Below, in pieces: positions 30,834 to 64,000 of a DNA stretch of 64,000 nt (its first letter is position 1; each line of letters starts with the position of its first letter). This DNA comes from Synechococcus sp. PCC 6312 (GTDB taxonomy: Bacteria > Cyanobacteriota > Cyanobacteriia > Thermosynechococcales > Thermosynechococcaceae), in contig NC_019680.1 in assembly GCF_000316685.1 (NCBI RefSeq), positions 1,055,501-1,119,500 on the forward strand, given 5' to 3'. The notes below the pieces were generated by a model. It did no database searches, was not told the DNA's origin, and was given only the letters and a program-made list of their open reading frames with translations. A program made the position numbers and the translations under genes.

Positions 30834-31883
30834 ATGCTGAGCCATATTGATCCGAATAATCAGCCAACAATGGTGGATATTAGCGAGAAATCAGACAGTC
30901 AACGGCAAGCTGTAGCCCAAACTTTAATACAATTACCGCTGGCTTTAAAACCCTATTTACAGGGGGAAGAACTCATTCTCAAAAAGGGGCCGGTGATTCA
31001 AACGGCAATCATTGCGGGAACCATGGCCGTGAAGAAAACCAGTGATCTGATTCCCTTTTGTCATCAAATTCCCATCGAGTCCTGTAAGTTTGTCATTGAG
31101 ATTGACTCAACCCTGAAGGTGATGATTACCTGTGAAGTCAAAACCAGCTATAAAACCGGCGTGGAAATGGAAGCCCTCTGTGGAGCTTCGGTCGCTGCAT
31201 TAACGATTTATGATATGTGCAAAGCAGTTTCCCCACAGATAACTATTTCTCAGACAAAACTCTTAACTAAAACCGGGGGTAAAACAAACTTTAAGCGAGT
31301 GCCGCAACCCCTCTATGGCCTGGTGCTGACTGGGGGGAAAAGTAAACGGATGCAGCAGGATAAAGCACTCCTAAAATATTATGACCAACCCCATGCTAAG
31401 CACATTTTTGATCTCCTAAGTAACTATTGTGAATACGTTTATCTCTCGGCCCGCAGAGAGCAATGGTGCAACACAGAATTAGCTTCATTACCGACCCTTG
31501 TAGATCATGATGACGATCTGGGGCCATTGGGGGGCATTTTAACCGCCTTAGAAACCCATCCAGAGGCCTGTTGGCTGATCATGGCCTGTGATTTAGCCTA
31601 TGTGAACGCTGGTACGATTGAAAAACTACTGGAAAATTATCATGATGAGGTGGTTGCCACCTGTTATCAAAACCCAGAACATGGTTTTCCTGAACCCCTT
31701 TGCGCCCTTTATACCCCTCAGGCCCTGAAACAATTTCAACGCGCTAAAACAGCCAAGATTTATTGTCCAGTCAAAGTCCTGCAAATGAGTAATTGTTACT
31801 TTATCACCCCAGGCCTGGCTCAAGAAATCGCTAATATTAATACCCCTGATGAATATCACCAAGTCCGCCATGAACACCATTAA
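30834..31883 (+). CDS. MoaC-MobA fusion: cyclic pyranopterin monophosphate synthase / molybdenum cofactor guanylyltransferase
   Basis: 349 residues with two enzyme domains in one frame. Residues ~10-155 are MoaC (MVDISEKSDSQRQ, TSDLIPFCHQIP, KTGVEMEALCGASVAALTIY, DMCKA), the second step of cofactor synthesis. Residues ~158-345 are MobA, with the nucleotide-binding loop VLTGGKSKRMQQDKALL, VDHDDDLGPLGGI and MACDLAYV. MobA attaches GMP to make the bis-MGD cofactor that NarB uses. The MobA loop has GGKSKRM in place of the more usual GGxxxRMG. The gene sits between moaA and moaD and overlaps moaD by 14 bp. Confidence 0.93.
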   Translation: MLSHIDPNNQPTMVDISEKSDSQRQAVAQTLIQLPLALKPYLQGEELILKKGPVIQTAIIAGTMAVKKTSDLIPFCHQIPIESCKFVIEIDSTLKVMITCEVKTSYKTGVEMEALCGASVAALTIYDMCKAVSPQITISQTKLLTKTGGKTNFKRVPQPLYGLVLTGGKSKRMQQDKALLKYYDQPHAKHIFDLLSNYCEYVYLSARREQWCNTELASLPTLVDHDDDLGPLGGILTALETHPEACWLIMACDLAYVNAGTIEKLLENYHDEVVATCYQNPEHGFPEPLCALYTPQALKQFQRAKTAKIYCPVKVLQMSNCYFITPGLAQEIANINTPDEYHQVRHEHH

Positions 31884-35250: not shown

Positions 35251-35676
35251 TTATAGAAGGGGCTTAAAGCAATCTAAATTCGGTAATTGTCCAATTACAA
35301 CGGCTTGCTGATGGGTAATCCAGGCATGGGCTGCAAGTTTTTTCTGCTCATCTAACATTACCCCCACACAGAGCCGAGCTTCATAGCCATAGGTTTGCAA
35401 CAGGGTTTGAGCTGCCAAGGCCTGGGTCAGACAGGTGGCTTTTGGAATACGTCTGGCGGTAATTTTGATACTCCAGATCAGCTTTTTGAGGGGAATTGAT
35501 TGCAATGGGACAGATTTATGCAACCGTTGACTGAGAAAGTCTGGAAACCGCCGTAATCGAGCAAAGGGCAAAAACCACAATCCCAAACGAAACCCCAAGA
35601 CTAACACCCCTGCTTGCACAACCAAAAGACGGTGAGAAGGTGATAAGTTGAACCAGGTTTTGAAGGGCTTCAACAT
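35251..35676 (-). CDS. Lasso peptide biosynthesis B2-type transglutaminase-like protease
   Basis: 141 residues of the Transglut_core3/lasso B2 family. A hydrophobic N-terminal half (VVQAGVLVLGFRLGLWFLPF) is followed by the protease core: catalytic Cys in ATCLTQALAAQTLLQ (~80), conserved GYEARLCVGV, His in LAAHAWI (~116), and an acidic residue near the C-terminal LPNLDCF. B2 removes the leader peptide in lasso peptide maturation. Upstream on the same strand lies a 66-codon ORF with the leader motif this protease recognises. No B1 recognition protein and no C cyclase are found within the window. Confidence 0.85.
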   Translation of the reverse strand: MLKPFKTWFNLSPSHRLLVVQAGVLVLGFRLGLWFLPFARLRRFPDFLSQRLHKSVPLQSIPLKKLIWSIKITARRIPKATCLTQALAAQTLLQTYGYEARLCVGVMLDEQKKLAAHAWITHQQAVVIGQLPNLDCFKPLL

Positions 35677-35860
35677 TGCGAGGGTGGAATTTCCGGTATC
35701 TGGTTAGAGTTCGTCGGAGGTATCAAGCTGATCAGCCCCAAGCATTAACCTCTATCGCAATCTCACCTGAGTCAAGCAGGAGCCAAAGCTGTCAGCCGAG
35801 TCAAATCAACACTCAGGTTCCCAAAGTCTATCAGGATGACTTTAGTGTGACCCTATTGTC
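35677..35860. other. Gap between lasso precursor-like ORF and B2 gene
   Basis: 184 bp. I translated the reverse strand here in three frames looking for a B1 (PqqD-like) gene and found only short frames broken by stops. The place where B1 often sits is therefore empty or decayed. Confidence 0.5.
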
Positions 35861-36061
35861 TCACGAAGAACCACAAGAAAAGTCAATGCCGAAACCATCA
35901 TCATTAGGGACAAGATCATTTGGAGTTAAATTTCCACAATGACCGAAGCATTCTAATTTGGGCTGGCTGTAGGGCTTACGAGTAAAATCTAAGCTGGGCT
36001 GAGCTTGATCAATCGGGTCGCACAAACTATCGAAATCAGGCTGAAAGAAACTCGACTGCAT
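35861..36061 (-). CDS. Candidate lasso peptide precursor, 66 aa
   Basis: A short ORF whose residues ~31-46 read YSQPKLECFGHCGNLT. This fits the lasso leader consensus Y-x2-P-x-L-x3-G-x5-T exactly. The tail after the Thr is PNDLVPNDDGFGIDFSCGSS; if the Thr is at the usual -2 position, the core would start at Asn with Asp residues at ring positions 7 and 8. Core position 1 is usually Gly, so an Asn start is odd. It lies directly upstream of the B2 protease gene on the same strand. No convincing ribosome binding site precedes the ATG at 36061, so the gene could be decayed or misstarted. Confidence 0.55.
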   Translation of the reverse strand: MQSSFFQPDFDSLCDPIDQAQPSLDFTRKPYSQPKLECFGHCGNLTPNDLVPNDDGFGIDFSCGSS

Positions 36062-51999: not shown

Positions 52000-52168
52000 A
52001 ATTCTGGATCAGGGGGGTTTTAGTGAAATGGGGCGAAACGTGACGCGACTAAGTGAAATAGAGACTTGCAGGCATCGGCGGCCGGTTGCCTAGAAAACGA
52101 ACTGATCACGGAATTCTGGATCAACACGAAAACAAGAGTATTTCTCTGAGAGAGGTTGATCCAGAATT
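52000..52168. repeat. AATTCTGGATCA repeats, right flank of the CRISPR array
   Basis: Exact copies at 52000-52011 (forward), 52112-52123 (forward) and 52157-52168 (reverse). The last two form a 14-bp perfect inverted repeat (AATTCTGGATCAAC / GTTGATCCAGAATT) around a ~31-bp centre whose CTGAGAGAGGTTGATCC resembles the left-flank GTCAGAGAGAATGATCC. Between copies lie GTGAAATGGGGCGAAACGTG and AAGTGAAATAG, repeats of a GTGAAA core (52023-52060), and a hairpin AGGCA...TGCCT at 52070-52091. Transposase end-binding sites, or a leader with regulatory sites, are both possible. Confidence 0.8.
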
Positions 52169-52257
52169 AAATGATCACTTTTTGGGGGGTTGGTTTTGTG
52201 GCTCTGGGTTGCTCATGGGTGAACCTTTGAGGGGTGCTTTATTGTATTGGGGCGGCG

Positions 52258-52506
52258 CTAATCGCTTGTAAGAAGTAGGGTTGTTAGCCTTTCGATAGAC
52301 GATTCATAGTCTTCTTGGGTGTATCCTTCAGTTGCGGCTTGTTGTGAGAGGAAGGTCTCTCGGGCAAAGGCTTCGATTTCCGATGCCGTGACGTTGGTCG
52401 CCAGGGTTTTGAGGAATTCAATGATCATGGGATGGAAGCCATAGTCTTCGGATGCGTTGAGCATATCCAAGACTTCGTAGAGGTCGGTGGTGAGTTGTCG
52501 GTTCAT
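52258..52506 (-). CDS. Hypothetical protein, 82 aa, prophage left operon
   Basis: A small acidic, helical protein (LYEVLDMLNASEDYGFHPMI, IEAFARETFLSQQAATEGYT) without membrane segments. I do not recognise it. It is the last gene of the leftward group and separated by 134 bp from the HNH gene. Clear start ATG at 52506 preceded by an A/T-rich stretch (reverse strand). Function unknown. Confidence 0.6.
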   Translation of the reverse strand: MNRQLTTDLYEVLDMLNASEDYGFHPMIIEFLKTLATNVTASEIEAFARETFLSQQAATEGYTQEDYESSIERLTTLLLTSD

Positions 52507-52640
52507 CGTGATTCTATTTTTCTAACTATTCTAAGCCTTGCTTCCTGTCGGCATTCTTAATCGTTTTCCCCAGGCCATTAGGAAACTCGTGGCATGATTT
52601 TCCTAATGTGTTGATTTTGGCGGTTTTTGTCACCTGGAGC

Positions 52641-53600
52641 TTAGGCTGCGGGCTGTTTGCCCAGTGGGGTGGGCGGATATGGGGCGTAGAGCCTGGTGCG
52701 GAAGCGGTTGAGGGTTATTAGTGAGGTTCGGTATTCGGGATAGAGTTGGACGATGAAGCGGATGAGGTCGTCAATGGTGCAGGGCTGGTTCGTGCCGCCC
52801 ATCCAGGCGTGGAATTCGCAGTGGAGTGCGGTGCTAATGGTGAGTAGGTTATCGAGACTGTCTTCGAGCTGGGGGTAGTGTTTGGCGTTATAGAGATGGT
52901 GAACGTCCACTTCGATTTGCCCCTTAAGCCCGGAAAAGCCGGTGATTTGACATTTGTGTTTGTCTCGCTCTAGGGCTTGCTCTTTGGCTTTGTCGATGAT
53001 TTGTTTTTTGGTGAGTCCGGTTAGTTGTGGGTATAGGTGTTTGACGTTGATGACAACGGTGTTGCACCACTTTTTGCGAGCGGAATTGCTAAGGTGATCT
53101 GCTAGGAATTCGCCGATTCGATAGATGCCCGAAAGCGAGATATATGTGACTCCTTCTATGTAGGTAAAATGCTCGTCGGCTTTTAACGGTTTTTCTGATT
53201 GTTTTATTTTGCCTAAGACTTGTTGAAACGTTTTAGACTCGGTGCGAAAGATTCTGATGGTTTCTTGGATGGTGATGTAGTTGGATTTGTTGATAGTCTT
53301 GAGGCTTTGGCAGTTTTCGATGACGACTTGAGTGACCTGAGCGGATAGGTGTTCTTCTTTCTTTTGCTCAATTAACTGTTTGAGTTTGGCGGCAGCGGCT
53401 TGATTCTTGCCTTGGGCAAGGGCTTGGTAGATTATCTTGAGTCCTGGAACGAGGTAAATTCTAATCTTTTTGCCTTGATTGATGACCTTGTAATGCTCAC
53501 CTGGAATGAGTTTTATTCTGTCAACTGTGGCGTTGAAATGGGCGACATGAGTACCAATGGCGATGGCGATGTCTTGGTCTTTGATTTGAAGTTCGTTCAT
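52641..53600 (-). CDS. HNH nuclease domain protein of the prophage left operon
   Basis: 319 residues. The C-terminal part (~215-285) is HNH-like: KHKCQITGF, the VDVHHLYNAKHYPQLEDSLD segment with the paired His, NLL, and HCEFHAWMGG as the last His element. The N-terminal 200 residues are a helical, Lys/Gln-rich region with two phage-regulator-like segments (LIPGEHYKVINQGKKIRIYL and EHFTYIEGVTYISLSGIYRI). It overlaps the J-domain gene stop by 4 bp, so they form one operon. It could be a nicking/homing enzyme or a defence-type nuclease carried by the prophage. Confidence 0.75.
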   Translation of the reverse strand: MNELQIKDQDIAIAIGTHVAHFNATVDRIKLIPGEHYKVINQGKKIRIYLVPGLKIIYQALAQGKNQAAAAKLKQLIEQKKEEHLSAQVTQVVIENCQSLKTINKSNYITIQETIRIFRTESKTFQQVLGKIKQSEKPLKADEHFTYIEGVTYISLSGIYRIGEFLADHLSNSARKKWCNTVVINVKHLYPQLTGLTKKQIIDKAKEQALERDKHKCQITGFSGLKGQIEVDVHHLYNAKHYPQLEDSLDNLLTISTALHCEFHAWMGGTNQPCTIDDLIRFIVQLYPEYRTSLITLNRFRTRLYAPYPPTPLGKQPAA

Positions 53601-54175
53601 GGGGCTTGATTGAGGCTACGGTACATCTGTTCGAGGCGTTCAAAGATGCGTCTGTTGCCTGTTTCGGTGTTGTCGGGGTGGTAGGTTTTACTGAGGCGGT
53701 AGTATGCGTCTTTGATGTCTTTTTCGGTGGCAGTTTGAGGGTCTAGGTTGAAGACTTGCCAGGGACGGAAGTAGTTAAAAATGTTCACGCCGTTGATGCA
53801 CTCAGGGCCGGCTTGGTGTTCTTCGTCGGGGAGTGTGCCAATGAGGTCTCGGTAAAGCTGTTCCCAGGTTGCTTTGATGGCGTAGTTGAGGGCATCCATG
53901 CCGTCTGTGGCCATCTGAAACTTGCCGCTTTTGCGGAGGGCGGCGGTGCTGGTGACGTTGAATTTTTTGTAAAGGGCTTGTTTGAGTTGGGTGACGGTGA
54001 GGGGCTTGACAGTGGGGGGCTTGACAGTGGGGGACTTGGGTTCCTTTGGGGGTTTGGGGGGTTTGGCGAGGACTAGGTGGGCAAAAGTTTGAAGGATTTG
54101 GGGGTCGTAGCCATGATCCCGGTGCAGCCGCTCGATTTCGGCAAGGATATGCGGGGCGAGGGGCTTGGCAGGCAT
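53597..54175 (-). CDS. J-domain (DnaJ-like) protein of the prophage left operon
   Basis: 192 residues. The C-terminal ~60 residues are a J-domain: WQVFNLDPQTATEKDIKDAY, then YRLSKTYHPDN with the HPD tripeptide required to stimulate DnaK. The N-terminus is a Lys/Pro-rich segment with short repeats (PKPPKEPKSPTVKPPTVKPL) and a helical middle. J-domains at the C-terminus are uncommon compared with N-terminal ones. It is coupled to the HNH gene by overlap. Possible roles: recruiting host DnaK for prophage replication, repressor or transpososome remodelling. Inference only. Confidence 0.85.
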   Translation of the reverse strand: MPAKPLAPHILAEIERLHRDHGYDPQILQTFAHLVLAKPPKPPKEPKSPTVKPPTVKPLTVTQLKQALYKKFNVTSTAALRKSGKFQMATDGMDALNYAIKATWEQLYRDLIGTLPDEEHQAGPECINGVNIFNYFRPWQVFNLDPQTATEKDIKDAYYRLSKTYHPDNTETGNRRIFERLEQMYRSLNQAP

Positions 54176-54192
54176 GAGAGCGAGGAGAGGAA

Positions 54193-54286
54193 CTTGAATG
54201 TCGTTTTTCAGGAACTTGAATGATCTTGAAGGCTAACTTGAATGAACTTGAACGATCTTGAAGGTTAACTTGAACGTTAACTTGAA
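54193..54286. repeat. Helically spaced CTTGAA repeats upstream of the J-domain gene
   Basis: Eight copies of CTTGAA, at 54193, 54215, 54225, 54237, 54247, 54257, 54269 and 54281. From the second copy on the spacing is 10-12 bp, one helical turn. Most copies are preceded by AA and several followed by CG or GG. They lie between the start of the J-domain gene and the end of the repressor gene. A cooperative operator array or transposase/enhancer-like site is possible. Confidence 0.8.
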
Positions 54287-54324
54287 GGTTTGGTAGCTAA
54301 ACCCGCATAAGTGAAACTTATCAG

Positions 54325-54651
54325 TTAGGCAACAGTGAGGTACTCCAACCCCTTCTCCATTACCTTGGCTAGAGAGGCTTTTGGTAAACGGCTAAGTTGC
54401 CGAATGATGGTGTCCTCATTGAACTGTGCTGCACCTTCCAGGTATTCCATCAGATCTGAGTGGGACTGTCCGGTTGCTTTTGCAATCTTCTCAAGGCTGA
54501 GAACGCTGGGGAAGTGGGTGCGGTTGTACCAGTTTTGTATTGCTGTATAGGAAATCCCGAACTCTTTTGCGAGTTCCCGCTGACTCATATTCCGTGTGCG
54601 CTGCTCTTTCTGTAGCAGACAAATTAACCGTTCGCGTGCGTTTTCGTTCAT
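54325..54651 (-). CDS. Prophage repressor-like XRE family regulator
   Basis: 108 residues from the ATG at 54651, which has AAGGGGGG upstream; a longer frame to 54684 is less likely. The N-terminal helix-turn-helix is clear (MSQRELAKEFGISYTAIQNW, then YNRTHFPSVLSLEKIAKATG), followed by a short C-terminal helical region. It is divergent from the Ner-like gene, in the place of the Mu c repressor. Three or more ACTTGTC-N5-GACAAGT dyads between the two genes are its probable operators. Confidence 0.85.
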   Translation of the reverse strand: MNENARERLICLLQKEQRTRNMSQRELAKEFGISYTAIQNWYNRTHFPSVLSLEKIAKATGQSHSDLMEYLEGAAQFNEDTIIRQLSRLPKASLAKVMEKGLEYLTVA

Positions 54652-54695
54652 AAAGTACCCCCCTTCCAAGAGAACTGGGCGCATAGCTATATCTT

Positions 54696-54799
54696 ACTTG
54701 TCAGACTGACAAAAGCAAGTGAAAGAGACCGAACTTGCCATATTGACAAGTAAGATTGTCGGAACTAAACTGACAAATGAACTTGTCGGATCGACAAAT
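54696..54799. promoter_or_regulatory. Operator cluster between repressor and ner-like genes
   Basis: Dyads of the form TTGTC-N5-GACAA: 54698-54712 (TTGTC-AGACT-GACAA), 54735-54749 (TTGCC-ATATT-GACAA, one mismatch) and 54783-54797 (TTGTC-GGATC-GACAA). A wider pair TTGTC-N11-GACAA lies at 54756-54776. Centre spacing is 37 and 48 bp. The layout recalls multi-site phage operators. The rightmost dyad touches the start codons of the ner-like gene, so binding there would block its expression. Confidence 0.8.
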
Positions 54800-55019
54800 G
54801 CACCCAGAAGATATTAAGGCTGAATTACGGAAAAAAGGCTTTACTGGAGCGTCAATCGCCAGAAACCTGGGACTGACAAGGAGTACAGTTTCTTCTGTCG
54901 TCAGGCGCAAAGGGCGTTCTGCCAAGGTTGAGGTTGAAATTAGCAGAATCCTGGGGAAGCCCGTAGAGGAAATTTTCCCTGAGATTCCGTTGGATCGTCT
55001 TTTTTTGAAATCGAATTAG
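54777..55019 (+). CDS. Ner/Nlp-like DNA-binding protein
   Basis: 80 residues if started at 54777; a second ATG at 54798 gives 73 and matches Mu Ner length better, while the first lies upstream of the right operator. The sequence HPEDIKAELRKKGFTGASIA, RNLGLTRSTVSSVVRRKG aligns with Mu Ner (helix-turn-helix of the Nlp family), and the C-terminus KPVEEIFPEI is characteristic. Ner switches off the repressor and tunes early transcription. It lies 9 bp upstream of the transposase gene and is co-transcribed with it. Confidence 0.88.
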   Translation: MNLSDRQMHPEDIKAELRKKGFTGASIARNLGLTRSTVSSVVRRKGRSAKVEVEISRILGKPVEEIFPEIPLDRLFLKSN

Positions 55020-55028
55020 GGGTTAGCC

Positions 55029-57293
55029 ATGTGGTTTTCCGCCCAAGAGCTAACTGGATTGCCGGGACTCCCTGGCACTGTTCAGAGCATTAATCAAAAA
55101 GCCAAGCGAGAGGGCTGGCAGTTTAGGAACCGGTCTGGCAAGGGGGGCGGGAAGGAGTATCACGTTTCTAGTTTGCCAACTGAGGCCCAGGCCCGGCTTT
55201 TGGAACTCGAAAACACACCTATATATAAGGAGAAAACCGATGAATTGTGTGGAAGTGCTTTACCAGGCTTCGATTCTGTGCTTTGTGGTGCTGACGGCGA
55301 TTTTGTTGATTCGCATTGTGATTTTACTTCGAGACTATTAACCGAAGCGCCCAAAGACAAGAAAACCAGACAAGCCGAGGCTCGGCAACAGATCCTCCTG
55401 ACGTTGCAGGACTATTTGACTCGGCAAAATGCGGTCGGTTTAGGCAGAGTGCGCTATTGCCGCCAGGCCTTTGTGGATGCCTATAACGATCCCCTGGCCC
55501 CCAAGGGAGAACTGAGGCTGCCCTGGTGGGTGTATGGCGAGGTCAAAAGTATTAGCTATCAAACCCTTTACTCATGGGAGTTGAAGCGGGATGTGGCGGG
55601 GGTTTCAGGGTTAGCCCGGAAACAGGGTAAGCGAACTACAACCATTGAAGCTACCCCGGAACTGAAGCAGGCCTGCTTGGATTTGCTGCTGGCTCACCCA
55701 GATATTTCGGTGGTGGGGATGTGGCATGAGATGTGCGAACGGTTTGAGGATTGCCCTAGTTTGCCGACATTGCGGCGGTTTGTCCGGGGTTGGAAGGCAG
55801 AAAACAGCGACATTTTTGATTTTGCAGACTCACGGAAAGGCTGGAGAAACCGACACATGAAGGCGTTTGGGAGCTATCGGGCAACTCGGTTTAACCAACG
55901 TTGGGAGATTGACTCCACCCTGGCTGACATTGTTTGGGAGTTGGACGACGGGTTTGGCGGCTTCCAGCGATACGCCCTAGTGGTGGCCGTGGAGGTCTAT
56001 TCCCGGATGGCCAGGGTATTGGTTTGCCGAACCAGTAACAGTTTGGCGATTGCGGCGATTTTGCGGGAGTGCCTAATTGATTGGGGTGTGCCGGAGAGCG
56101 TCAAAACCGATAACGGAAAGGATTACCTGAGTCGTCACATCCTTAATATATTGAGTGTTTTGGGGATTGAGCATAAGAAATGTGTGCCATTCAATCCGCA
56201 GCAAAAACCATACGTCGAAAGATTTAACCACACGCTGAATCACGGTGCGGCGATGGTGCTGCACCCCAGATATTTGGGCCATGACGTGGTGACTCGGCAG
56301 AAAATCAGAAGCCGGGAACTGTGGCCGGAGAAGGCAAAGCGGAAGGGGGATGAGAGCGAGATTGAGGTGGTGCGGATCAATAAGAGTCTGCGGCAGATGC
56401 AGTGCTTCATTGAGGAGTGGTTGATTGATTATCACAACACCCCCCACGAAGGCCTTGGGCAAATCCGAGACGGGGCGGGGAATTTACGGCATTTGACCCC
56501 CTACGAAGCGGCGGCAAATCAACCGGCCAAGCGAATTGAGAATGTCCGGGCGTTGGATGTGTTGATGATGCCTGCACCCCAGGGTGGCTATCGGGCGACG
56601 GCTGGGAAGAAGGGGATCCGAGTGGGAAATTTGCCCGATGGGACTCCGGCTTATTACTGGCACGAGTGCTTGGTGGAGGTGGGACGGCGGTTTGAGCGGG
56701 TGTTTGTGAAGCTCGACCCGAATCCGGCGTTGATTCACCTGTTCGACAGTGAGGATTGCACCGAGTATCTGGGGGTTTGCGAGTGTTACGAAATCAGTGG
56801 AAACGACCCAATGCCGGGGATTATTGCGACGCGGCGGGCTGAGAAAGAGTCCCGAAAACTGGTGGCGGCGGCGCGGTTGTCTCGGCGGCGGCTGGAGAAA
56901 ACAGAACTGACCCCAGGCCGGGAGGTGGCGTTGCTCAAGGGGCAGGGTGAAATCCATGAGACTCCGGCTCTGAAGGCGGCGGCGAATCTGCAACCTGCTC
57001 GGAACACCACGGTGATTGGGATTGGCCCGATTAAGGAGTCTGCGCCGTTGCCGTTGCCCAACCCTGGGGCCCCACGCCTGGAGCGGGAGGTGGTGATTCC
57101 CCGTGTGTTGAACCAGTGGTATGCCGGGGAGCCGGTTGATCCGGTGGAGTTGGCGTTTGTGGGGCGGCAATTTGAGCTGAATCGCGGCGGCGTGACGCTG
57201 GTTGAGTGTTTGGTGCGTGACCGGGAGGATTTTTTCAAGTTCAGACGATGGGTGCTGGCTCAGTTAAGCGAGGGAATCCAGCAGACAGGTTGA
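55029..57293 (+). CDS. MuA-like DDE transposase
   Basis: 754 residues. An N-terminal Mu-type DNA-binding domain (MWFSAQELTGLPGLPGTVQS) is followed by further helical DNA-binding domains and the rve catalytic core: Asp in RWEIDSTLADIV (~297), Asp in VKTDNGKDYLS (~360), Glu in QKPYVERFNHTLNHG (~398). A basic beta-barrel and C-terminal domain follow, with a MuB-contact tail expected. Mu transposase cuts and joins prophage ends during replicative transposition. The segment 55359-55393 near the N-terminus is the one matched by the CRISPR spacer-like sequence. Frame is intact. Confidence 0.95.
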   Translation: MWFSAQELTGLPGLPGTVQSINQKAKREGWQFRNRSGKGGGKEYHVSSLPTEAQARLLELENTPIYKEKTDELCGSALPGFDSVLCGADGDFVDSHCDFTSRLLTEAPKDKKTRQAEARQQILLTLQDYLTRQNAVGLGRVRYCRQAFVDAYNDPLAPKGELRLPWWVYGEVKSISYQTLYSWELKRDVAGVSGLARKQGKRTTTIEATPELKQACLDLLLAHPDISVVGMWHEMCERFEDCPSLPTLRRFVRGWKAENSDIFDFADSRKGWRNRHMKAFGSYRATRFNQRWEIDSTLADIVWELDDGFGGFQRYALVVAVEVYSRMARVLVCRTSNSLAIAAILRECLIDWGVPESVKTDNGKDYLSRHILNILSVLGIEHKKCVPFNPQQKPYVERFNHTLNHGAAMVLHPRYLGHDVVTRQKIRSRELWPEKAKRKGDESEIEVVRINKSLRQMQCFIEEWLIDYHNTPHEGLGQIRDGAGNLRHLTPYEAAANQPAKRIENVRALDVLMMPAPQGGYRATAGKKGIRVGNLPDGTPAYYWHECLVEVGRRFERVFVKLDPNPALIHLFDSEDCTEYLGVCECYEISGNDPMPGIIATRRAEKESRKLVAAARLSRRRLEKTELTPGREVALLKGQGEIHETPALKAAANLQPARNTTVIGIGPIKESAPLPLPNPGAPRLEREVVIPRVLNQWYAGEPVDPVELAFVGRQFELNRGGVTLVECLVRDREDFFKFRRWVLAQLSEGIQQTG

Positions 57294-57318
57294 TTCAAAA
57301 AAACATTAGGAGGTGGCT

Positions 57319-57603
57319 ATGAACACAGTTGTTATTCAAATTGGCAATTCAGACGACAGGCTAAGTCAGCGTGATTGGGTGAGATTCAGGGCCCGTGTTC
57401 GGGAGGTTGTTTGTCGGTATTGCGCCCAGATCCACTTTGATGGGCACAGCAACAGTGACGCTGTTTGGCAAAATGCCTGCTTTGTTGCCGAGATTCCCGA
57501 GGGGCTGAGCGAGGTTGCCCTGAAGGACGTTTTGAGTGAAATCTCAGACGAGTTTGGGCAGGATTCGATTGCTTTCACTACTGGTACGACGGAGTTTGTC
57601 TAA
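57319..57603 (+). CDS. Hypothetical small prophage protein, 94 aa
   Basis: ATG at 57319 with a strong TAGGAGG before it; a GTG two codons upstream is the alternative. The sequence begins NTVVIQIGNSDDRLSQRDWV and has a two-layer alpha/beta look (beta strand, helix with RARVREVVCRYC, strand, helix SEVALKDVLSEI, strand). I do not recognise it. It lies between the MuA- and MuB-like genes, where Mu has none. Confidence 0.7.
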   Translation: MNTVVIQIGNSDDRLSQRDWVRFRARVREVVCRYCAQIHFDGHSNSDAVWQNACFVAEIPEGLSEVALKDVLSEISDEFGQDSIAFTTGTTEFV

Positions 57604-57612
57604 AAAGAGAAA

Positions 57613-57633
57613 CCCCTTGCGGGGCCAGTTTTT
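57613..57633 (+). terminator. Short hairpin between small gene and MuB-like gene (attenuator?)
   Basis: CCCC-TTGC-GGGG (57613-57624) followed after four bases by five T residues (57629-57633). The 4-bp GC stem is short, so it is a weak terminator at best; partial termination would lower MuB relative to MuA. Confidence 0.35.
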
Positions 57634-57654
57634 ATATCTACAGGAGATCATAAC

Positions 57655-58377
57655 GTGCAAAATATTGCGATTACAAAAAACCTGAAAAGGTTTCAGGGAG
57701 CGTTTGGGGATTTAATTGGCCGCAGTGAACGAATCCCAGGCCTTGGACTCGTTACCGGCCCGGCCGGGACGGGCAAGACGGTGGCGGCGACCCATATTTG
57801 CCACAAGCAAAATGCGATCTACGTGTTGGCGGATCCGTTTTGGACGGCCTCCTCGATGCTAGGAGCGATCCTGCACAAGTTAAGCGTCAACCCCGGTCGG
57901 GTGAGTAATGCCGAGGCGTTTCGGTTGGCCGTGGAGAGGATGCGGGACACGGGGCGGTCGCTGCTGGTGGACGACGCGGATTTTCTCTTTGACAGTTCTG
58001 ACCGAAATCGGCTGGTGGAGGGGCTTCGCAGTTTGCATGACAAGTCTCAGCAGCCGGTGATCATGATTGGGATGGAAAAAATTCGCTCGAAACTCCACCG
58101 TTACCCACAAGTCTTGGGTCGGATGTCTCGGTCGGTGGACTTTGAATATTTAGACCTGGAAGACACGCGGGCGGTGTTGGAGGTGATTTGCAAGGTCAGC
58201 ATCGCGCCTGACCTGTCGCAGGTGATCCACCAACGAACTAAGGGCGCGCTCCGGTTGATTGTGGTGGCAGCGGAAACCATTGAGGCGGAAGCGACGGCCC
58301 AGGGCTGGGAAGTGGTTACGGCCGATCAGTGGGGAGACGCTGTTCTCTTTACGGGTGATTCTCGGAGGGCCGCATGA
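57655..58377 (+). CDS. MuB-like AAA+ ATPase
   Basis: 240 residues. Walker A GPAGTGKTVAATH (~34), Walker B SLLVDDADF (~103), sensor-like VIMIGMEKIRSK and a C-terminal helical domain with TKGALRLIVVAAETIEAEA. MuB binds target DNA and delivers it to MuA, and gives target immunity. GTG start with CAGGAG at 57641. The stop overlaps the next gene as ATGA. It lacks the N-terminal helix-turn-helix domain of Mu B (about 310 residues), as in many shorter MuB/TnsC-like ATPases. Confidence 0.93.
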   Translation: MQNIAITKNLKRFQGAFGDLIGRSERIPGLGLVTGPAGTGKTVAATHICHKQNAIYVLADPFWTASSMLGAILHKLSVNPGRVSNAEAFRLAVERMRDTGRSLLVDDADFLFDSSDRNRLVEGLRSLHDKSQQPVIMIGMEKIRSKLHRYPQVLGRMSRSVDFEYLDLEDTRAVLEVICKVSIAPDLSQVIHQRTKGALRLIVVAAETIEAEATAQGWEVVTADQWGDAVLFTGDSRRAA

Positions 58378-58913
58378 GATTTTGTTTGCCCAGGCAGATT
58401 GTTTGGACGGCAATTGCGCCCCGTGTGGGTGAAGTGGTGGATTTTGCGCCGTTGTTTGAGTCTGTGGGGACGACCGTGGTGCTTCAGCGCAGTTGGTTGC
58501 TGGCGTTGTCGCGGGCGGGGTATTTGTTGCGCCAGGGACGGGGGGGGCGGTTTCAGGTGCTGCGACATACGGGGGTGCTGGCCCCAATGCGGCGTAAGGA
58601 CGGCAGCTTGTATGACCCTAATACTGCCGGGCCGATTGAGCTGGGCGCGCTCCGGGTTTGGGTGGCGTTGCTGATTAACAAAGTCTTAACCCAGCCCGAG
58701 GCGGCGGCGTTGTGTGATTTGTCGGTGCAGCGGGTAGCTGAATTGCTCAGTGCCTGGCAACGGGTTGGGGCTGTCCGGGTTAGTCGTGTCGGGACTGGGA
58801 ATGGGCTTGAATACCGGATTGTGCGAGATCAGCCGATTTGCCCGATTGTTACGCCCCACGGTGTTTTTGATGTGTATCTCAATAAATTTTTGGAGGTTGC
58901 AAATGATGGGTAA
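58374..58913 (+). CDS. Hypothetical prophage protein with winged-helix-like segments, 179 aa
   Basis: Overlaps the MuB-like gene by 4 bp. A first half resembling a helix-turn-helix/wing (SWLLALSRAGYLLRQGRGGR, then FQVLRHTG) and a second helical segment (LTQPEAAALCDLSVQRVAEL, then SAWQRVGAVRVSRVG) suggest two winged-helix-like modules. The C-terminus is short and hydrophobic. Probably DNA-binding; no family recognised. High-GC codon use typical of this prophage. Confidence 0.7.
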   Translation: MRFCLPRQIVWTAIAPRVGEVVDFAPLFESVGTTVVLQRSWLLALSRAGYLLRQGRGGRFQVLRHTGVLAPMRRKDGSLYDPNTAGPIELGALRVWVALLINKVLTQPEAAALCDLSVQRVAELLSAWQRVGAVRVSRVGTGNGLEYRIVRDQPICPIVTPHGVFDVYLNKFLEVANDG

Positions 58914-59283
58914 TCGGTTAGCGTTTCGTCCCAAGGCCGGCCATTTTATTGATTGTGAACGGCTGGGTAACGGCACTTTCCGGGTGGAGATTCAGCAGGG
59001 GGTGAAGGTGTGCTACGGGGTGCTGACTCCTGAGGATGCTCGGATGACGGCCCGGATGATGGCCGGGATGGGCCCGGTTCGGTTAGTGTTTCGGCCCCAG
59101 ACCGGCCATCTTATTGATTTTGAGCGGCTGGAGAACGGCACTGTCCGGATGGAGATTCGGCAGGAATTAGAGGTCTGCTATGCGGTGCTAACCCCTGAGG
59201 ATGCTCGGATGCTGGGGCGGATGTTAATGGCTGGGTCTGGGCCAGTTTTGCCGGGGTTCACCCAAATGCGGAGGGCGGGTTGA
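58903..59283 (+). CDS. Small protein made of two tandem ~55-residue repeats
   Basis: 126 residues from the ATG at 58903 (GGAGG 8 bp upstream); a longer frame from 58750 is a shadow of the previous gene. Residues ~5-59 (RLAFRPKAGHFIDCERLGNG ... LTPEDARMTARMMAGMGPV) and ~60-114 (RLVFRPQTGHLIDFERLENG ... LTPEDARMLGRMLMAGSGPV) are clearly duplicated, with a beta-hairpin plus helix look. Function unknown. It overlaps both neighbours by a few bases. Confidence 0.75.
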   Translation: MMGNRLAFRPKAGHFIDCERLGNGTFRVEIQQGVKVCYGVLTPEDARMTARMMAGMGPVRLVFRPQTGHLIDFERLENGTVRMEIRQELEVCYAVLTPEDARMLGRMLMAGSGPVLPGFTQMRRAG

Positions 59284-59603
59284 TGAGAGCCCCCCACCCT
59301 GAAGGGACTATCGAGCGGGAGTTAACTTGCGAACTCTTTCGCCGGGAAGTGTTGGGTTGTTGCAACCTGCGAGAGTTGCGGTACCGACTGCTGTGGACGC
59401 ACAAGATGTTGCTGTCCGCCTATGACGAGATCGAGATTTTCGAGGCGGAATTATCTGAGGCCTTGGATGGGCGGGAGCGTGATTTTCGCCGCTTTATTGG
59501 CCAGTTGGATGAGTTGTGTCTGGAGTTGGATCGACTGGAGGCGGTGGTAGACCCCCAAGGGGGAGCAGTAGAGGCGTTGTTGCTGGGAGGTGATTGTGTC
59601 TGA
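59283..59603 (+). CDS. Hypothetical helical prophage protein, 106 aa
   Basis: Starts at the ATG overlapping the previous stop (TGATG). Predominantly helical and acidic (LRELRYRLLWTHKMLLSAYD, EIEIFEAELSEALDGRERDF, LDELCLELDRLEAVV); coiled coil likely in the second half. No family recognised. The end overlaps the next gene. Confidence 0.65.
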   Translation: MRAPHPEGTIERELTCELFRREVLGCCNLRELRYRLLWTHKMLLSAYDEIEIFEAELSEALDGRERDFRRFIGQLDELCLELDRLEAVVDPQGGAVEALLLGGDCV

Positions 59604-60162
59604 ACTGGAACGGCTAAAAAACTACTTGTTTGAGCACTGCTATGGCCAGGCCCGTGGTCAAAAAATGGCTGATATTGCCCTGGCGCTGGGGCGATGCTCG
59701 CGAGAGTTGCGGTATTTAGTGCAGGAGTTGCGGTTGCGAGGCTGCCCAATTTGCGCGCACCCAAACACAGGCTATTACTGGGCGGAAACTCCTGAGGAAT
59801 TGGAGGTGGCGTTGGGCTTTCTGCGAGGTCGGGCGTTGTGCAGCCTGAGACAGGTGGCGCGGTTGCAGCGTCATGCGTTGCCGTTGTTGGCAGGGCAGTT
59901 GGTGATTGGGGAATTGCCTCCTGTACCCGAAGGGGCCCCAGGGGCAGAATACGGGGGATTGGTGGCCTTGGAAGTTGCGCTGCCCTACACCCTGCATGAG
60001 CGGGTGGAAGCCTATTTGGAAAACCGCTTTTGGCTGAGTCAGGACGATCTGATTCGGCAAGCGGTGGCTCAGTTTTTGGCGTTGCAAGGGGTGGTGTTGC
60101 CCCCTAACCTGTTGGCGGAATTGGCGGAAGAAATCATTGAAGGAGAACTAATCCATGAGTAA
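59596..60162 (+). CDS. Hypothetical prophage protein with N-terminal HTH-like domain, 188 aa
   Basis: GTG at 59596 chosen because GGAGG lies 6 bp before it; a GTG two codons earlier is the alternative. Residues ~15-65 (RGQKMADIALALGRCSRELR, YLVQELRLRGCPICAHPNTG) look like a winged helix with a YYWA wing, common in phage proteins. The C-terminal part has a possible ribbon-helix-helix-like segment (LHERVEAYLENRFWLSQDDL, IRQAVAQFLALQ). Both parts point to DNA binding. Overlaps the next gene by 8 bp. Confidence 0.7.
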   Translation: MSELERLKNYLFEHCYGQARGQKMADIALALGRCSRELRYLVQELRLRGCPICAHPNTGYYWAETPEELEVALGFLRGRALCSLRQVARLQRHALPLLAGQLVIGELPPVPEGAPGAEYGGLVALEVALPYTLHERVEAYLENRFWLSQDDLIRQAVAQFLALQGVVLPPNLLAELAEEIIEGELIHE

Positions 60163-60955
60163 TTTAAAACCCCAAAAGGAAACATTTGAGCAGTTGAGTT
60201 TGATTGAGCGGTCGGATTTGGAGCGACTGGAGCAAACGATCCGGGCTGGGTTGAATACCTTTGTTGAGGTGGGCCAAGCTCTCCAGAAAATCCGAGAGCA
60301 ACGGTTGTACCGAGAAACCCACCAAACCTTTGAGGCCTATTGCGAAGACAAATTTGACTTGAGGCGGAACTATGCCGATAAAACCATTGCGGCTTCATCC
60401 TTTGTAGAGAGAATCAGTACAATTGGCGTGATTCTACCAACGAATGAAAGTCAAGTTCGGGAGATTTTGACGCTGCCTGAGGATCGACAAGTCGAGGCCT
60501 GGCGTGAGGTGGCGGAAGCGGCGGCCAGTGAGGGCAAGTTGACGGCGGATTTAGTCAAGACGGTGGTGAAGCGGTTGCGAGAGGTGCGGCTTCCGGGTGG
60601 AAATGATCCTCAATCCCCTGATGTGGCTAGTGGGCCGAGGGTGGCCGGGCCTGAAGTGCCGTTGTCGTTGCTAGAGGCGGGGCAGTTGGTGCTGACGGGT
60701 GTGGGTGAGGAGATGTTGCACTTTCGGGATCTCTCTGAGGCTCAGGATTTGGCAGGTCGGCCGCTGTATCCGCAGTGGATTGGATTTGGCCCAAGTTGCT
60801 TGCTACGGGAGTTGTTGCCGCTGTTTCGGGACGGGCTGTTTTGTCTGTATTTCGGCTGGTTGGCGGTGTATGTCGGTGATAGTCCGATTGAGTTTTACGA
60901 GGCGTTTGTGGGACTCGGGGATATTTGGGCCCGGCAGGAGGTGGGGGATGAATGA
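60155..60955 (+). CDS. Phage-type protein with DUF3102/ParB-like helical N-domain, 266 aa
   Basis: The N-terminal ~110 residues (LERLEQTIRAGLNTFVEVGQ, ALQKIREQRLYRETHQTFEA, YCEDKFDLRRNYADKTI) match a module frequent in phage and plasmid proteins, close to DUF3102-like or ParB-type HTH proteins. The C-terminal half is different: a Trp/Phe-rich alpha/beta part (LLPLFRDGLFCLYFGWLAVY). Likely DNA-binding with an unknown effector half. The stop overlaps the next start as ATGA. Confidence 0.7.
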   Translation: MSNLKPQKETFEQLSLIERSDLERLEQTIRAGLNTFVEVGQALQKIREQRLYRETHQTFEAYCEDKFDLRRNYADKTIAASSFVERISTIGVILPTNESQVREILTLPEDRQVEAWREVAEAAASEGKLTADLVKTVVKRLREVRLPGGNDPQSPDVASGPRVAGPEVPLSLLEAGQLVLTGVGEEMLHFRDLSEAQDLAGRPLYPQWIGFGPSCLLRELLPLFRDGLFCLYFGWLAVYVGDSPIEFYEAFVGLGDIWARQEVGDE

Positions 60956-61188
60956 CCCCTTGGCGGCTCGGTTTGATAATCCCGGACAAGGTACGCGGTG
61001 GCGATTGGGGTTGGTTGGTGCAACGGGAAGAGGAGGCTAATTCGGTGGGAAAAAGCGAACAAAACCCTGAAGCCCAGGCTAGCAAAGAGTTACCCAAGCG
61101 CCTAAACGAAATGTCTGAAGCAGAACGGGCAGAGGCGGCGGCGGCGATTGAAAAAGCACGAGCAAATTTAAGGAGGGGGCATGAGTAG
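60952..61188 (+). CDS. Hypothetical small prophage protein, 78 aa
   Basis: Short, charged, with a helical Ala/Glu-rich C-terminal half (LNEMSEAERAEAAAAIEKAR). Starts in a 4-bp overlap with the previous gene and overlaps the next by 8 bp, which supports expression. No family recognised. Confidence 0.55.
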   Translation: MTPWRLGLIIPDKVRGGDWGWLVQREEEANSVGKSEQNPEAQASKELPKRLNEMSEAERAEAAAAIEKARANLRRGHE

Positions 61189-61429
61189 GACGACACCTGT
61201 TACAATTCTGGACTTTCTGAGTCGCCAAACTCGGTCTATTGGTTTTAGGTCGCTAGCCAAGGGCTGCAACAGCCGTTTAGGGGTGGAAAAGTTTCACCAT
61301 TTACTTTGGCTTCTGATAATTCATGGACTCGTCCGCTATAGCTCTACTGATCCTCGCAAGACAACTCTCTATCAAATCACTGAGGAGGGTCGGAAGCTTT
61401 TGCAGGAGTTTCGTGAAAAGGGGATTTGA
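61181..61429 (+). CDS. Winged-helix DNA-binding protein, 82 aa
   Basis: A compact winged helix: TILDFLSRQTRSIGFRSLAK (helices 1-2), LGVEKFHHLLWLLIIHGLVR (recognition helix and strand), YQITEEGRKLLQEF (wing and last helix), as in small PadR/ArsR-like folds. GGAGG precedes the ATG at 61181. Probably an accessory transcription factor of the early region. Confidence 0.75.
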   Translation: MSRTTPVTILDFLSRQTRSIGFRSLAKGCNSRLGVEKFHHLLWLLIIHGLVRYSSTDPRKTTLYQITEEGRKLLQEFREKGI

Positions 61430-61458
61430 GCTAGGTAGGTTGTCACAGGAGATTCAAG

Positions 61459-61656
61459 ATGTTGATTGAGCAGTATTTAGACAGGCTGGCGGCGGAACGG
61501 GTTGAGTGGGAAGTCCTGTGTCAACAGGCCTACAGCCCGGAAGAGAAGCAGGTGGTGGTGGAGAAGATTCGGGATTTGCTGGCGGTGATGCGCTCGCAGC
61601 GGGAGTGGTTACAGGCGGGGCTAAAAAGCGTGAAGGAAAAGGAGCAGGGGCTATGA
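61459..61656 (+). CDS. Hypothetical small helical protein, 65 aa
   Basis: All-helical, strongly charged (MLIEQYLDRLAAERVEWEVL, VVEKIRDLLAVMRSQREWLQ). CAGGAG precedes the ATG. Ends with a 4-bp overlap (ATGA) with the NblA-like gene, so the two are coupled. No family recognised. Confidence 0.6.
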   Translation: MLIEQYLDRLAAERVEWEVLCQQAYSPEEKQVVVEKIRDLLAVMRSQREWLQAGLKSVKEKEQGL

Positions 61657-61838
61657 ATTTACCCCATTTAGACCCGGATTTGATCCAGTTGAGCCTGGAG
61701 CAACAGGTATTGATTGAGACAATTAAGTGGCAAATTCCGCAAATGAGCCGGGGACAGTTGGAGGAACGGTTGTTGCAGATGACGCAGCTAGCCGAGGCGA
61801 GACAGGCGGTGATTCGGGCAATGGTCAAGGGAGGTTGA
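61653..61838 (+). CDS. NblA-like small protein, 61 aa
   Basis: Residues ~10-55 align without gaps to the NblA family: LSLEQQVLIETIKWQIPQMS then RGQLEERLLQMTQLAEARQA and a final Lys in MVK. It keeps the SLEQ motif, the Q and MS positions, and the spacing to the end helix seen in Synechocystis NblA. Identity by eye is modest (about a dozen of 43), so this is a distant relative. NblA proteins bind phycobiliproteins and Clp to dismantle phycobilisomes; some cyanophages carry nblA. Coupled to the upstream small gene by ATGA overlap. A generic helical hairpin is the alternative. Confidence 0.6.
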   Translation: MNLPHLDPDLIQLSLEQQVLIETIKWQIPQMSRGQLEERLLQMTQLAEARQAVIRAMVKGG

Positions 61839-61839
61839 G

Positions 61840-62097
61840 GTGAAACGTGAGCAGGAATTGCTGAGGGATTACGACCTCGAATTAACAAACGCTCGGCGCA
61901 AGATTCGCGAGCTTGAGGCCTTTGTGTCTGAGGTAAAGGCGATGCGCGTACTTCAGAAGCGGTATTTTGTGGGGCGATCTCGAACGGTCTTGCAAGAGTC
62001 AAAAAACCAGGAACGGTGCGTGGATCGGCTGGTTGACTCTTTGTTGGAAGACTCCACGGTTGCCCAGGGTGATTTATTTGGGGGCAGCAATGGCTAG
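61840..62097 (+). CDS. Hypothetical coiled-coil prophage protein, 85 aa
   Basis: GTG start 1 bp after the previous stop, with GAGGTTGAGG upstream. The N-terminal half is a coiled coil (REQELLRDYDLELTNARRKI, RELEAFVSEVKAM). The remainder is basic and then acidic. Overlaps the next gene by 8 bp. No family recognised. Confidence 0.6.
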   Translation: MKREQELLRDYDLELTNARRKIRELEAFVSEVKAMRVLQKRYFVGRSRTVLQESKNQERCVDRLVDSLLEDSTVAQGDLFGGSNG

Positions 62098-62467
62098 CCC
62101 AAAAGAGCCACTGAGTTTTCGAGTGCTGAAGCTGCTTGAGGCGGGGGAGTTTCGGTCTGTAAAGTCCGCTGCTTTATTGTTGCAGTGCTCGACGGCCGAG
62201 GTGGCAGAGGCGTTGCGAATGTGCCAGAAACGGGGTTGCGTTGTTCGCAGAAGGGGTGAACTCATGCGATTGGCAAAGCCCAAGCTGAGAGGCGGGGAGC
62301 CATTGAGTTATCGAGTGTTGCAGTTACTGGAAGCCAACCAGTTTGGGTCTGTGAGTAAGGCGGCAAAGCGGTTGCAGTGCTCGGTGGCTGAGGTGGTGGA
62401 GGCGTTGCAACTGTGTCGGATTGCAGGTTGTGTTGTACGGAGGAGAGGGAAGTGGCTGAGTCTGTGA
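62090..62467 (+). CDS. Tandem duplicated helix-turn-helix protein, 125 aa
   Basis: From ATG 62090; a longer frame upstream is a shadow. Two ~55-residue copies: PLSFRVLKLLEAGEFRSVKS ... CVVRRRGELMRL (residues ~6-61) and PLSYRVLQLLEANQFGSVSK ... CVVRRRGKWLSL (~69-124). Each has a helix-turn-helix (AALLLQCSTAEVAEAL / AAKRLQCSVAEVVEAL) and a basic wing, so one chain could bind as a built-in dimer to direct repeats. Function in prophage regulation is inferred. Confidence 0.8.
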   Translation: MASPKEPLSFRVLKLLEAGEFRSVKSAALLLQCSTAEVAEALRMCQKRGCVVRRRGELMRLAKPKLRGGEPLSYRVLQLLEANQFGSVSKAAKRLQCSVAEVVEALQLCRIAGCVVRRRGKWLSL

Positions 62468-62919
62468 GGCGGTCGCTACTGGCAAAAATCCACGTTGCCA
62501 AGAAGCAGTTGGGGCTAAGTGAAGACCAATATCGGGCGATTGTGGCTGGCGAGGGCGGGGCTGAGTCCTGCTCGGAGCTAACCCTGGATGAGTTGGGCTT
62601 GGTGCTGTCGGAGATGGAGCGACTCGGGTTTAAGGCAAAGCAAAGTGAGTCGCTGTCGCCCAGGAGCCGTGACAAAACGGTGAAAACCCAGACCGACCGA
62701 TTGGTGGCGTTGTGGATTAACCTTTACCAGGCCGGGGCAGTCAAAAATCGCTCCCACCAGGCCCTGCAAGAGTTTGTGATCAAGTTCCTGGGGGCAAATG
62801 TGAAAGTTATGCCGGGGGTTGACCCGCTGCAGGCTTTGAGTTGGCGGCAAAAGCAGAAAACAATTGGGGCGTTGGAGAAGTGGTTGAGGAAGGTCAGAGA
62901 GGAGGCGAAGCAGGCGTGA
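62452..62919 (+). CDS. GemA-like regulatory protein (DUF1018, Mu gp16)
   Basis: 155 residues from GTG 62452 (GGAGG 7 bp upstream). Begins RRSLLAKIHVAKKQLGLSED followed by QYRAIVAGEGGAESCSELT, the DUF1018 signature. The C-terminal half (DRLVALWINLYQAGAVKNRS, ALSWRQKQKTIGALEKWLRK) is likewise typical. In Mu, GemA modulates host gene expression early in infection. The position just before the Mor gene matches Mu gene order. Confidence 0.92.
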   Translation: MAESVRRSLLAKIHVAKKQLGLSEDQYRAIVAGEGGAESCSELTLDELGLVLSEMERLGFKAKQSESLSPRSRDKTVKTQTDRLVALWINLYQAGAVKNRSHQALQEFVIKFLGANVKVMPGVDPLQALSWRQKQKTIGALEKWLRKVREEAKQA

Positions 62920-63584
62920 GTGAGCAGGAGCGGATTGCTAAGGGCCTGGCGATGATTCGGCACGAGTTGCGGCGGTTGGGACTGCGGGAGTCGTCGCCGT
63001 TGGTGCTGATTCTGTGCAACCAATACAAGGCTGCGAATTTGCAGGGGTTGGATATTGATGGACTGTTGGCGGTTTATGGGGTGTTGAAACGCTCTAATGC
63101 TGAACCCGATTTCTCGGGACAGCGTGATTTGAGTCCTGAGTTGGATTCGGTTTTGTTCCGATTAAAGGAGTTGGATTTGAGTCCGCGTGAATTTGTGATC
63201 ACGGCCTGGTGTCAGGCACACGGCTATCAGGGTTTTGATGATCTGGATGCGGAGGGTTTGAATCTGCTGGCGGCTGTTCTTGAAAGATCAAGGTTGCGGC
63301 GGTTAACAGGCTCGTCTTTGCAAGAGTTTGTGCGCCTTGAGTGGTGGTTGAGGCTAACGATTGCGGCTCTGAATGGGCTGGCTGGCGTGGGCGAATTTGA
63401 GGCTGCGTTGCAGATTCTAAATGCCAAGATTGCCGCCAACGACGCAGTAGATGAGCGGATCGAGCAGCGGATGATCCTTGAGCTAACGAAAAATTGCTCC
63501 CCAGAAGATTTGGCCCGGGAAGTGTCCGAAGTTAGGCGTTTGGCGCGGGTGTGGCAGCCGTGGAGACGGGAGGAGGCGCGGTGA
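62916..63584 (+). CDS. Hypothetical prophage protein, 222 aa
   Basis: GTG start in a 4-bp overlap (GTGA) with gemA; a longer upstream frame is a shadow. Helical protein with two related Leu-rich segments (LVLILCNQYKAANLQGLDID and FVITAWCQAHGYQGFDDLDA), suggesting an internal repeat. No family recognised. Coupled to the Mor-like gene downstream by another GTGA overlap. Confidence 0.65.
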   Translation: MSEQERIAKGLAMIRHELRRLGLRESSPLVLILCNQYKAANLQGLDIDGLLAVYGVLKRSNAEPDFSGQRDLSPELDSVLFRLKELDLSPREFVITAWCQAHGYQGFDDLDAEGLNLLAAVLERSRLRRLTGSSLQEFVRLEWWLRLTIAALNGLAGVGEFEAALQILNAKIAANDAVDERIEQRMILELTKNCSPEDLAREVSEVRRLARVWQPWRREEAR

Positions 63585-63901
63585 TTATCGAGGATTTGCG
63601 GCGGGTGCTGGAGGATAAGGCAGATGCCTTTTTTGCGGCGTTTGGGGGGCAGGAGCTTTATATCCCCAAATGCCCGACCGCTGATCACTCGATTAGTTTG
63701 GAGATTGGCGTTGAGGCGGCAACCCGTTTGGGAGCCTATTTTGGCGGGACAACAATCTACGTTCCTTGGTCTGAGACGCGAGCCTCTCGCAACCGGGAGA
63801 TTGCCGCAGATTTGGCGGCTGGTACCTGTAGCTTGCAGGAGTTGTCACGGCGTTACGGGTTGTCACGCCGGCATTTGCGGCGGCTGAAGGGCAGTTCTTA
63901 G
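63581..63901 (+). CDS. Mor transcription activator family protein
   Basis: 106 residues. The N-terminal dimerisation part (VIIEDLRRVLEDKADAFFAA) is followed by the Mor/Mga signature ATRLGAYFGGTTIYVPWSET and a C-terminal helix-turn-helix (LQELSRRYGLSRRHLRRLKG). In Mu, Mor activates the middle promoter Pm directly downstream. Here the last early gene is likewise followed by a non-coding gap before the next frame at the window edge. Confidence 0.92.
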   Translation: MIIEDLRRVLEDKADAFFAAFGGQELYIPKCPTADHSISLEIGVEAATRLGAYFGGTTIYVPWSETRASRNREIAADLAAGTCSLQELSRRYGLSRRHLRRLKGSS

Positions 63902-63905
63902 ACTT

Positions 63906-63964
63906 TTGTCCTGTTGTTTGGCGGGGGCGGCTCGAACAAGATGGGGGCAAGCCTGAGAGGACAA
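63906..63964. promoter_or_regulatory. Inverted repeat downstream of mor (possible middle promoter region)
   Basis: TTGTCCT at 63906-63912 and its reverse complement AGGACAA at 63958-63964 frame ~45 bp just after the Mor gene, where Mu has its Mor-activated Pm promoter. The repeat may be fortuitous; the location is the main argument. Confidence 0.3.
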
Positions 63965-63969
63965 GCTGC

Positions 63970-64000
63970 GTGAAAGAGTTTTTATTGCCACTGGTATTTG
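63970..64000 (+). CDS. Start of a possible next prophage gene (cut by window edge)
   Basis: A GTG at 63970 opens a frame reading VKEFLLPLVF to the window end, a hydrophobic start as in holin-like or membrane proteins that begin Mu-type lysis regions. Too short for any confident call. Confidence 0.25.
   Translation, partial: MKEFLLPLVF

Follow-up and report, generated by a model that had tools for sequence, protein, structure and literature searches.

The window analyzed here is a 64-kb stretch (G000:C1:1055501-1119500) of the Synechococcus sp. PCC 6312 genome, which comprises 3.72 Mb in two contigs. Two adjacent genes on its minus strand are the subject of this report. The downstream gene (35251..35676, minus strand) encodes a 141-aa lasso B2 leader peptidase, a transglutaminase-like Cys protease, which matches the lasso_biosyn_B2 model NF033537 (E-value 1.4e-24, 87 bits, cut-off 33) and PF13471 (E-value 6.2e-20). 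The presumed nucleophile Cys82 (codon at 35431..35433, minus strand) and the presumed catalytic His117 (codon at 35326..35328, minus strand) are each invariant in 31/31 aligned B2 proteins, in agreement with the first-pass annotation, which had called this gene a B2 protease with its Cys and His. It is the sole PF13471 gene of the whole genome. Searching the PDB with this protein gave 0 matches, and searching genome contigs gave two distant loci, both from Alphaproteobacteria or Paracoccus. In a tree of 31 B2 proteins, chosen from 62 B2 places listed, the window B2 has a long branch (2.12), which could reflect relaxed constraint.

Directly upstream on the same strand, separated by 184 bp, is a 66-aa ORF, A1 (35861..36061, minus strand), predicted to be a precursor peptide gene with a 47-aa leader and a 19-aa core. 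The leader contains YSQPKLECFGHCGNLT (35924..35971, minus strand), an exact Y-x2-P-x-L-x3-G-x5-T motif, as had been reported from the first reading of this DNA, and the ORF, its coordinates and its strand are also as first given. Counting back from the core, the conserved residues are Tyr-17, Pro-14, Leu-12 and Thr-2, and this numbering agrees with that of lasso leaders in the accessible part of PMC10368454. The predicted core, NDLVPNDDGFGIDFSCGSS (35864..35920, minus strand), was placed from Thr-2 and has Asn1, Asp7, Asp8 and a C-terminal Ser. Two features of lasso pathways are therefore present in A1, a YxxPxL-type leader with Thr at -2 and an Asp within core positions 7-9. From the sequence, Asp7 and Asp8 are possible ring acceptors, and the C-terminal Ser is a possible kinase site by analogy with PadeK-type kinases, which act on C-terminal Ser according to the accessible text of PMC9266682.

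The 184-bp gap (35677..35860) has no intact B1 frame, and the ORF list together with a PqqD search ruled out a hidden B1 either there or in the rest of the window. Whole-genome searches with PF05402 (PqqD, for B1) and PF00733 (Asn-synthase, for the cyclase C) found four matches each, two of the latter being long, and all of them lie outside the 64-kb window. Both absences had been noted in the first-pass annotation. Elsewhere in the window, we observed a 349-aa ORF (30834-31883, plus strand) which we take, by eye, to be MoaC-MobA fusion-like, with MoaA-, MoaD- and MoaE-like ORFs adjoining it. The GC skew rises in the last 12 kb (52001-64000) up to about +0.17 to +0.31, while the rest stays mostly within ±0.15.

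No Pfam or NCBIfam model matched A1. A matrix derived from 47 leaders found in other genomes scores its leader at 26.4 bits; when the window was randomized 100 times with a first-order Markov model, the top score was 17.1 bits, and the strict motif occurred 0.03 times per copy. At the scale of the whole genome, an antisense chance match inside a phosphoribosyltransferase-like ORF scored 26.8 bits, level with A1, and in a profile search the two had E-values of 0.0074 and 0.0067, respectively. We rejected this match as a precursor, as it lies antisense in another gene and has a 6-residue tail. Since the A1 leader is thus comparable with one chance match at genome scale, the case for A1 is made jointly by the leader, its strand, its position adjacent to the sole B2 and the composition of the core, and taken in this context the observation is more than chance. 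The frame of A1 is the best of six by codon usage, with a value that overlaps those of spurious ORFs. A1 has Pro at -1, which is found at that position in 0/47 leaders of relatives among the residues listed. A homologue search with A1 of 97 relatives, none of them identified as belonging to the same genus, gave matches in 8/97 at E <= 0.1, its own genome included, and all the others were weaker than E 0.01.

Lasso genes at other sites in PCC 6312

The first-pass annotation described the locus as an orphan, a label that came from the 64-kb view and does not hold for the genome, in which homologues of B1 and C, as well as more precursors, are found elsewhere. At about 2.69 Mb, a 631-aa candidate cyclase, C_a (L010:7911-9806), adjoins a PqqD protein, B1_a (L010:7603-7878). 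C_a keeps the SGGLDS motif and matches the lasso cyclase model NF033535 at 3e-115 and 386 bits, below the model cut-off of 525; cyclases of other genomes scored 389 (G034), 359 (G037), 1013 (G110) and 1073 bits (G253). B1_a is above the Pfam PqqD cut-off, matches NF033536, although its scores stay under the cut-offs of both NF033536 and NF033530, and matches the solved lasso RRE TbiB1 (5v1u) at 1.5e-10. Neither a B2 nor a motif-bearing precursor was found in the 15 kb examined at this site.

The exact leader motif occurs in three further short ORFs, none of them inside longer genes. A2 and A3 are found beside an HprK-like kinase at about 2.92 Mb (L020), with an ISL3 transposase fragment adjoining, and A4 stands alone at about 0.46 Mb, where an IS200-like transposase is close by. 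The A1 leader ranks third of four by profile. The motif pattern alone has no weight absent ORF context, because it gave 10 matches in the genome and 11 in a reversed control; five other pattern matches (L029, L032, L035, L036, L037) were rejected as precursors. At a fifth site, at about 3.57 Mb (L011), a second cyclase-like gene (C_b) is accompanied by a kinase, a second PqqD protein (B1_b), a glycosyltransferase-like gene and a 53-aa ORF, A5, the leader of which is of the Trp type; no B2 is found at the locus. We also noted at this site (L011:6268-11667) that C_b has SSGLDS in place of SGGLDS, that cupin genes are present, and that A5 has a possible Ala1-Asp9 core. The place of A5 is a guess, because its leader does not fit the matrix (-7.2 bits).

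Besides A1, the candidate cores are AGENDGADFDNLGS (A2), AISIVDVFRGRTAAAS (A3), VECGGGDDGLGSGTGPGGCSAP (A4) and ASFAGSGADGGFYS (A5). Asp is found at positions 7-9 in A1, A2, A4 and A5, while A3 has no acidic residue there, and four of the five end in Ser, A4 being the exception. Lasso genes therefore occupy five chromosomal sites with one B2, which is 1.60 Mb from C_a and 2.48 Mb from C_b, so that the single-locus clustering that is usual, though not strictly required, for lasso pathways is not found in PCC 6312.

The other two PqqD matches are 142-aa proteins at 2.27 Mb (L012:6187-6615) and 1.94 Mb (L013:6998-7426). Their C-terminal tails contain leader-like stretches (SYRSPILNIY... and KSFVEPKLCKY...), and HprK-like and glycosyltransferase-like ORFs adjoin both genes, with no cyclase. 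These proteins are possibly an RRE and its substrate fused in one protein.

Precursors, cyclases and B2 genes in other cyanobacteria

PF13471 was detected in 29/145 genomes searched, PCC 6312 included. The usual cyanobacterial set, B1-B2-C-A-kinase, holds most of the B2 genes of the relatives, and measured against this arrangement every part is found in PCC 6312, in pieces. From 57 loci of relatives we collected 53 motif-bearing ORFs, giving 52 distinct tails after one antisense-type match (L077) was removed by hand, before the leader matrix was built and the cores were counted. Conservation of the motif in the 53 is by construction, because the motif was the filter; the positions of Asp and Glu and the first residues of the cores are unaffected by it. 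An acidic residue occurs at positions 7-9 in 36/52 of these cores (mean 13 and maximum 24 in shuffled cores); Asp at position 7 occurs in 2, against 12 for position 8 and 26 for position 9. The first residue is Gln in 14, Ala in 14, Asn in 8 and Gly in 4, with others making up the rest. The core of A1 had been called unusual for a lasso ring on account of both its Asn1 and its Asp at 7/8. The worry about Asn1 can be dropped as an argument against a lasso peptide, given that 8/52 relative cores begin with Asn and that it is ordinary in cyanobacteria, while the part concerning Asp at 7 stands, as it is rare (2/52).

Two loci of relatives (L084 in G136 and L155 in G282) have B2, B1, ABC transporter-like, HprK-like kinase and nucleotidyltransferase-like genes and two precursors, with no cyclase within 20 kb. 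The cores there (QVGGSGGF...) have no Asp or Glu at ring positions, and from their sequences the B2 of these loci may serve linear peptides.

A search of 388 genomes of the class with C_a (E <= 1e-40) gave 51 cyclase places in 44 genomes, with a B2 within 15 kb at 40/51. The 11 exceptions are two each in PCC 6312, G253 and G023, and one each in G006, G034, G037, G045 and G286. Eight places in six genomes are informative, because those of G023 (two) and G286 (one) sit on short contigs. In G253, which is near-complete in 4 contigs, a kinase-A-C-B1 set at 2.27 Mb and a C-A-kinase set at 2.33 Mb are both more than 1.4 Mb from a lone B2, which is found among other genes at 3.80 Mb; a second B2 in this genome is accompanied by a B1 of its own and by a C of a different type. 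G006, G037 and G045 each have a single PqqD match, which adjoins their only B2, and the C-A-kinase set is on another contig. The arrangement in G034 is the same, with a second, weaker PqqD match elsewhere. These four are draft assemblies, though both the B1-B2 pairs and the cyclases are internal to their contigs and flanked by other genes. We also observed in G006 (L164:7952-9366, contig 62) an HprK-like kinase preceded by a precursor whose leader is WKKPKLISFGSIESVT; neither B1 nor B2 nor C was found in 18 kb, and the pair resembles the A2/A3 satellite of PCC 6312.

In a tree of 32 cyclases from chosen loci, six of them outside the 51 matches to C_a, C_a falls among the cyclases of lasso loci. 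C_a and C_b pair as sisters (100/100), and this pair groups (95/91) with the cyclases of G034, G037 and G045, all of which have no local B2. The B2 proteins of G034, G037 and G045 are of a different subtype from the window B2, the position of which is not placed by the 31-protein B2 tree, and so the splits are probably parallel, having arisen more than once.

A probable dispersed pathway and its alternatives

The first-pass annotation had proposed a split pathway, a relic, or a B2 used only for peptide cleavage. We favor the split, given the B1, C and precursor genes elsewhere in the genome and the recurrence of such splits: on the sequence evidence, the A1-B2 locus is probably the precursor and peptidase piece of a lasso pathway dispersed over the chromosome, with B2 acting in trans. 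In such a pathway an RRE, most likely B1_a, would bind the YxxPxL leaders of A1, A2, A3 and A4 and present them to the single window B2, which would cut after Thr(-2)-X(-1). C_a, with ATP, would then link the freed N-terminus with Asp7 or Asp8, and the kinase beside A2 and A3 may phosphorylate the C-terminal Ser of those cores that end in Ser. B2 would act on all lasso precursors that the cell encodes, perhaps also for the C_b-B1_b locus. In the accessible parts of PMC13381572 and PMC10368454, discrete RREs bind [Y/W]xxPx[L/V/..] leaders, pass them to B2 and aid the cyclase, and the former also describes an RRE, FusB1, that binds non-cognate leaders. The weak points of a dispersed pathway are the C_a score below the cut-off, the long B2 branch, the A1 leader score that only equals a chance match, the Pro at -1, the rarity of Asp7, the absence of a ring acid in A3 and the different B2 subtype of G034, G037 and G045.

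Alternatively, a once-complete B1-B2-C-A-kinase cluster may have been broken by rearrangement, its pieces persisting with no lasso peptide made now. This is the main rival, and in its favor are the transposase sequences beside A2/A3 and A4, the long branches of both the window B2 and C_b, the A3 core and the Pro at -1 of A1. However, the frames are all intact, the key residues are kept, A1, A2 and A4 retain both leader and ring Asp, and five further cyanobacterial genomes show comparable splits, a pattern that chance decay would not favor, so we regard a relic as unlikely. The 66-aa ORF might instead match by chance and happen to adjoin a genuine B2, the true substrates of which (A2, A4, A5) are encoded elsewhere; the near-equality of the ORF with the antisense match in the profile search, its Pro at -1 and its codon usage value would all fit. 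Yet the ORF immediately precedes the genome's single B2 gene on the same strand, its reading frame outscores the other five in codon usage, and it shares the ring Asp and C-terminal Ser with A2. Leader scores taken together with position led us to set this aside as the leading reading and to keep it as a rival of low probability.

Slightly less probable still is that B2 here serves leader removal only, A1 giving a linear and perhaps phosphorylated peptide while C_a and C_b act on other substrates. The clusters at L084 and L155 show B2, B1, a kinase, an ABC transporter-like gene and precursors together in the absence of C, and the accessible part of PMC13381572 describes linear phosphorylated RiPPs whose leaders are lasso-like, but with a different peptidase. 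The cores of those clusters have no Asp or Glu at 7-9, unlike A1, A2 and A4, and it is the Asp7 and Asp8 of A1 that speak against the cleavage-only reading of the first-pass annotation; C_a, moreover, adjoins a B1.

The dispersed pathway that we favor shares its gene families, leader motif and HprK-like kinase with the clustered cyanobacterial lasso loci of G110, G128 and G130, in which Asn, Gln and Ala are seen at core position 1, but the genes of those loci lie within about 10 kb. With paeninodin/pseudomycoidin-type systems, as far as the accessible part of PMC9266682 describes them, it shares the kinase family and the C-terminal Ser of most candidate cores, whereas the kinase of PCC 6312 is found at the A2/A3 site and not beside A1, and phosphorylation is putative. 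Unclustered lanthipeptide proteases, of another RiPP class, likewise have a leader peptidase gene far from the modifying enzymes (from excerpts of PMC8960859); in PCC 6312 the protease belongs to a lasso-specific family, and the dispersal extends to the cyclase, RRE and precursors. The linear phosphorylated (LPP) RiPPs have a YxxP leader, a discrete RRE and an HprK-like kinase with no cyclase alongside, but their peptidase is SpI-like, a serine peptidase, and no cyclase is involved in the accessible text (PMC13381572), whereas the peptidase beside A1 is a B2.

More tentatively, and with some doubt, we suggest that some cyanobacteria may have a hub-and-satellite lasso system, in which a single B2, together with one or two B1 and C enzymes, would serve scattered single-gene or A-kinase precursors. 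Moving a 150-bp precursor gene, and not an entire cluster, would then be the way in which new lasso peptides originate, and the system would have lasted long enough to mark a cyclase lineage out of contact with B2. We found no paper on dispersed lasso pathways in the literature searched, the coverage of which mostly leaves out subscription papers.

Genome mining for lasso peptides usually seeks B2, B1 and C close together. Dispersed lasso pathways would escape proximity-based mining or be classed as orphans or relics. Should the enzymes act in trans, one set of RRE, B2 and C must accept several leaders and cores, the cross-pathway specificity of lasso enzymes could be tested directly in nature, and PCC 6312 would offer a natural precedent for plug-in precursor genes.
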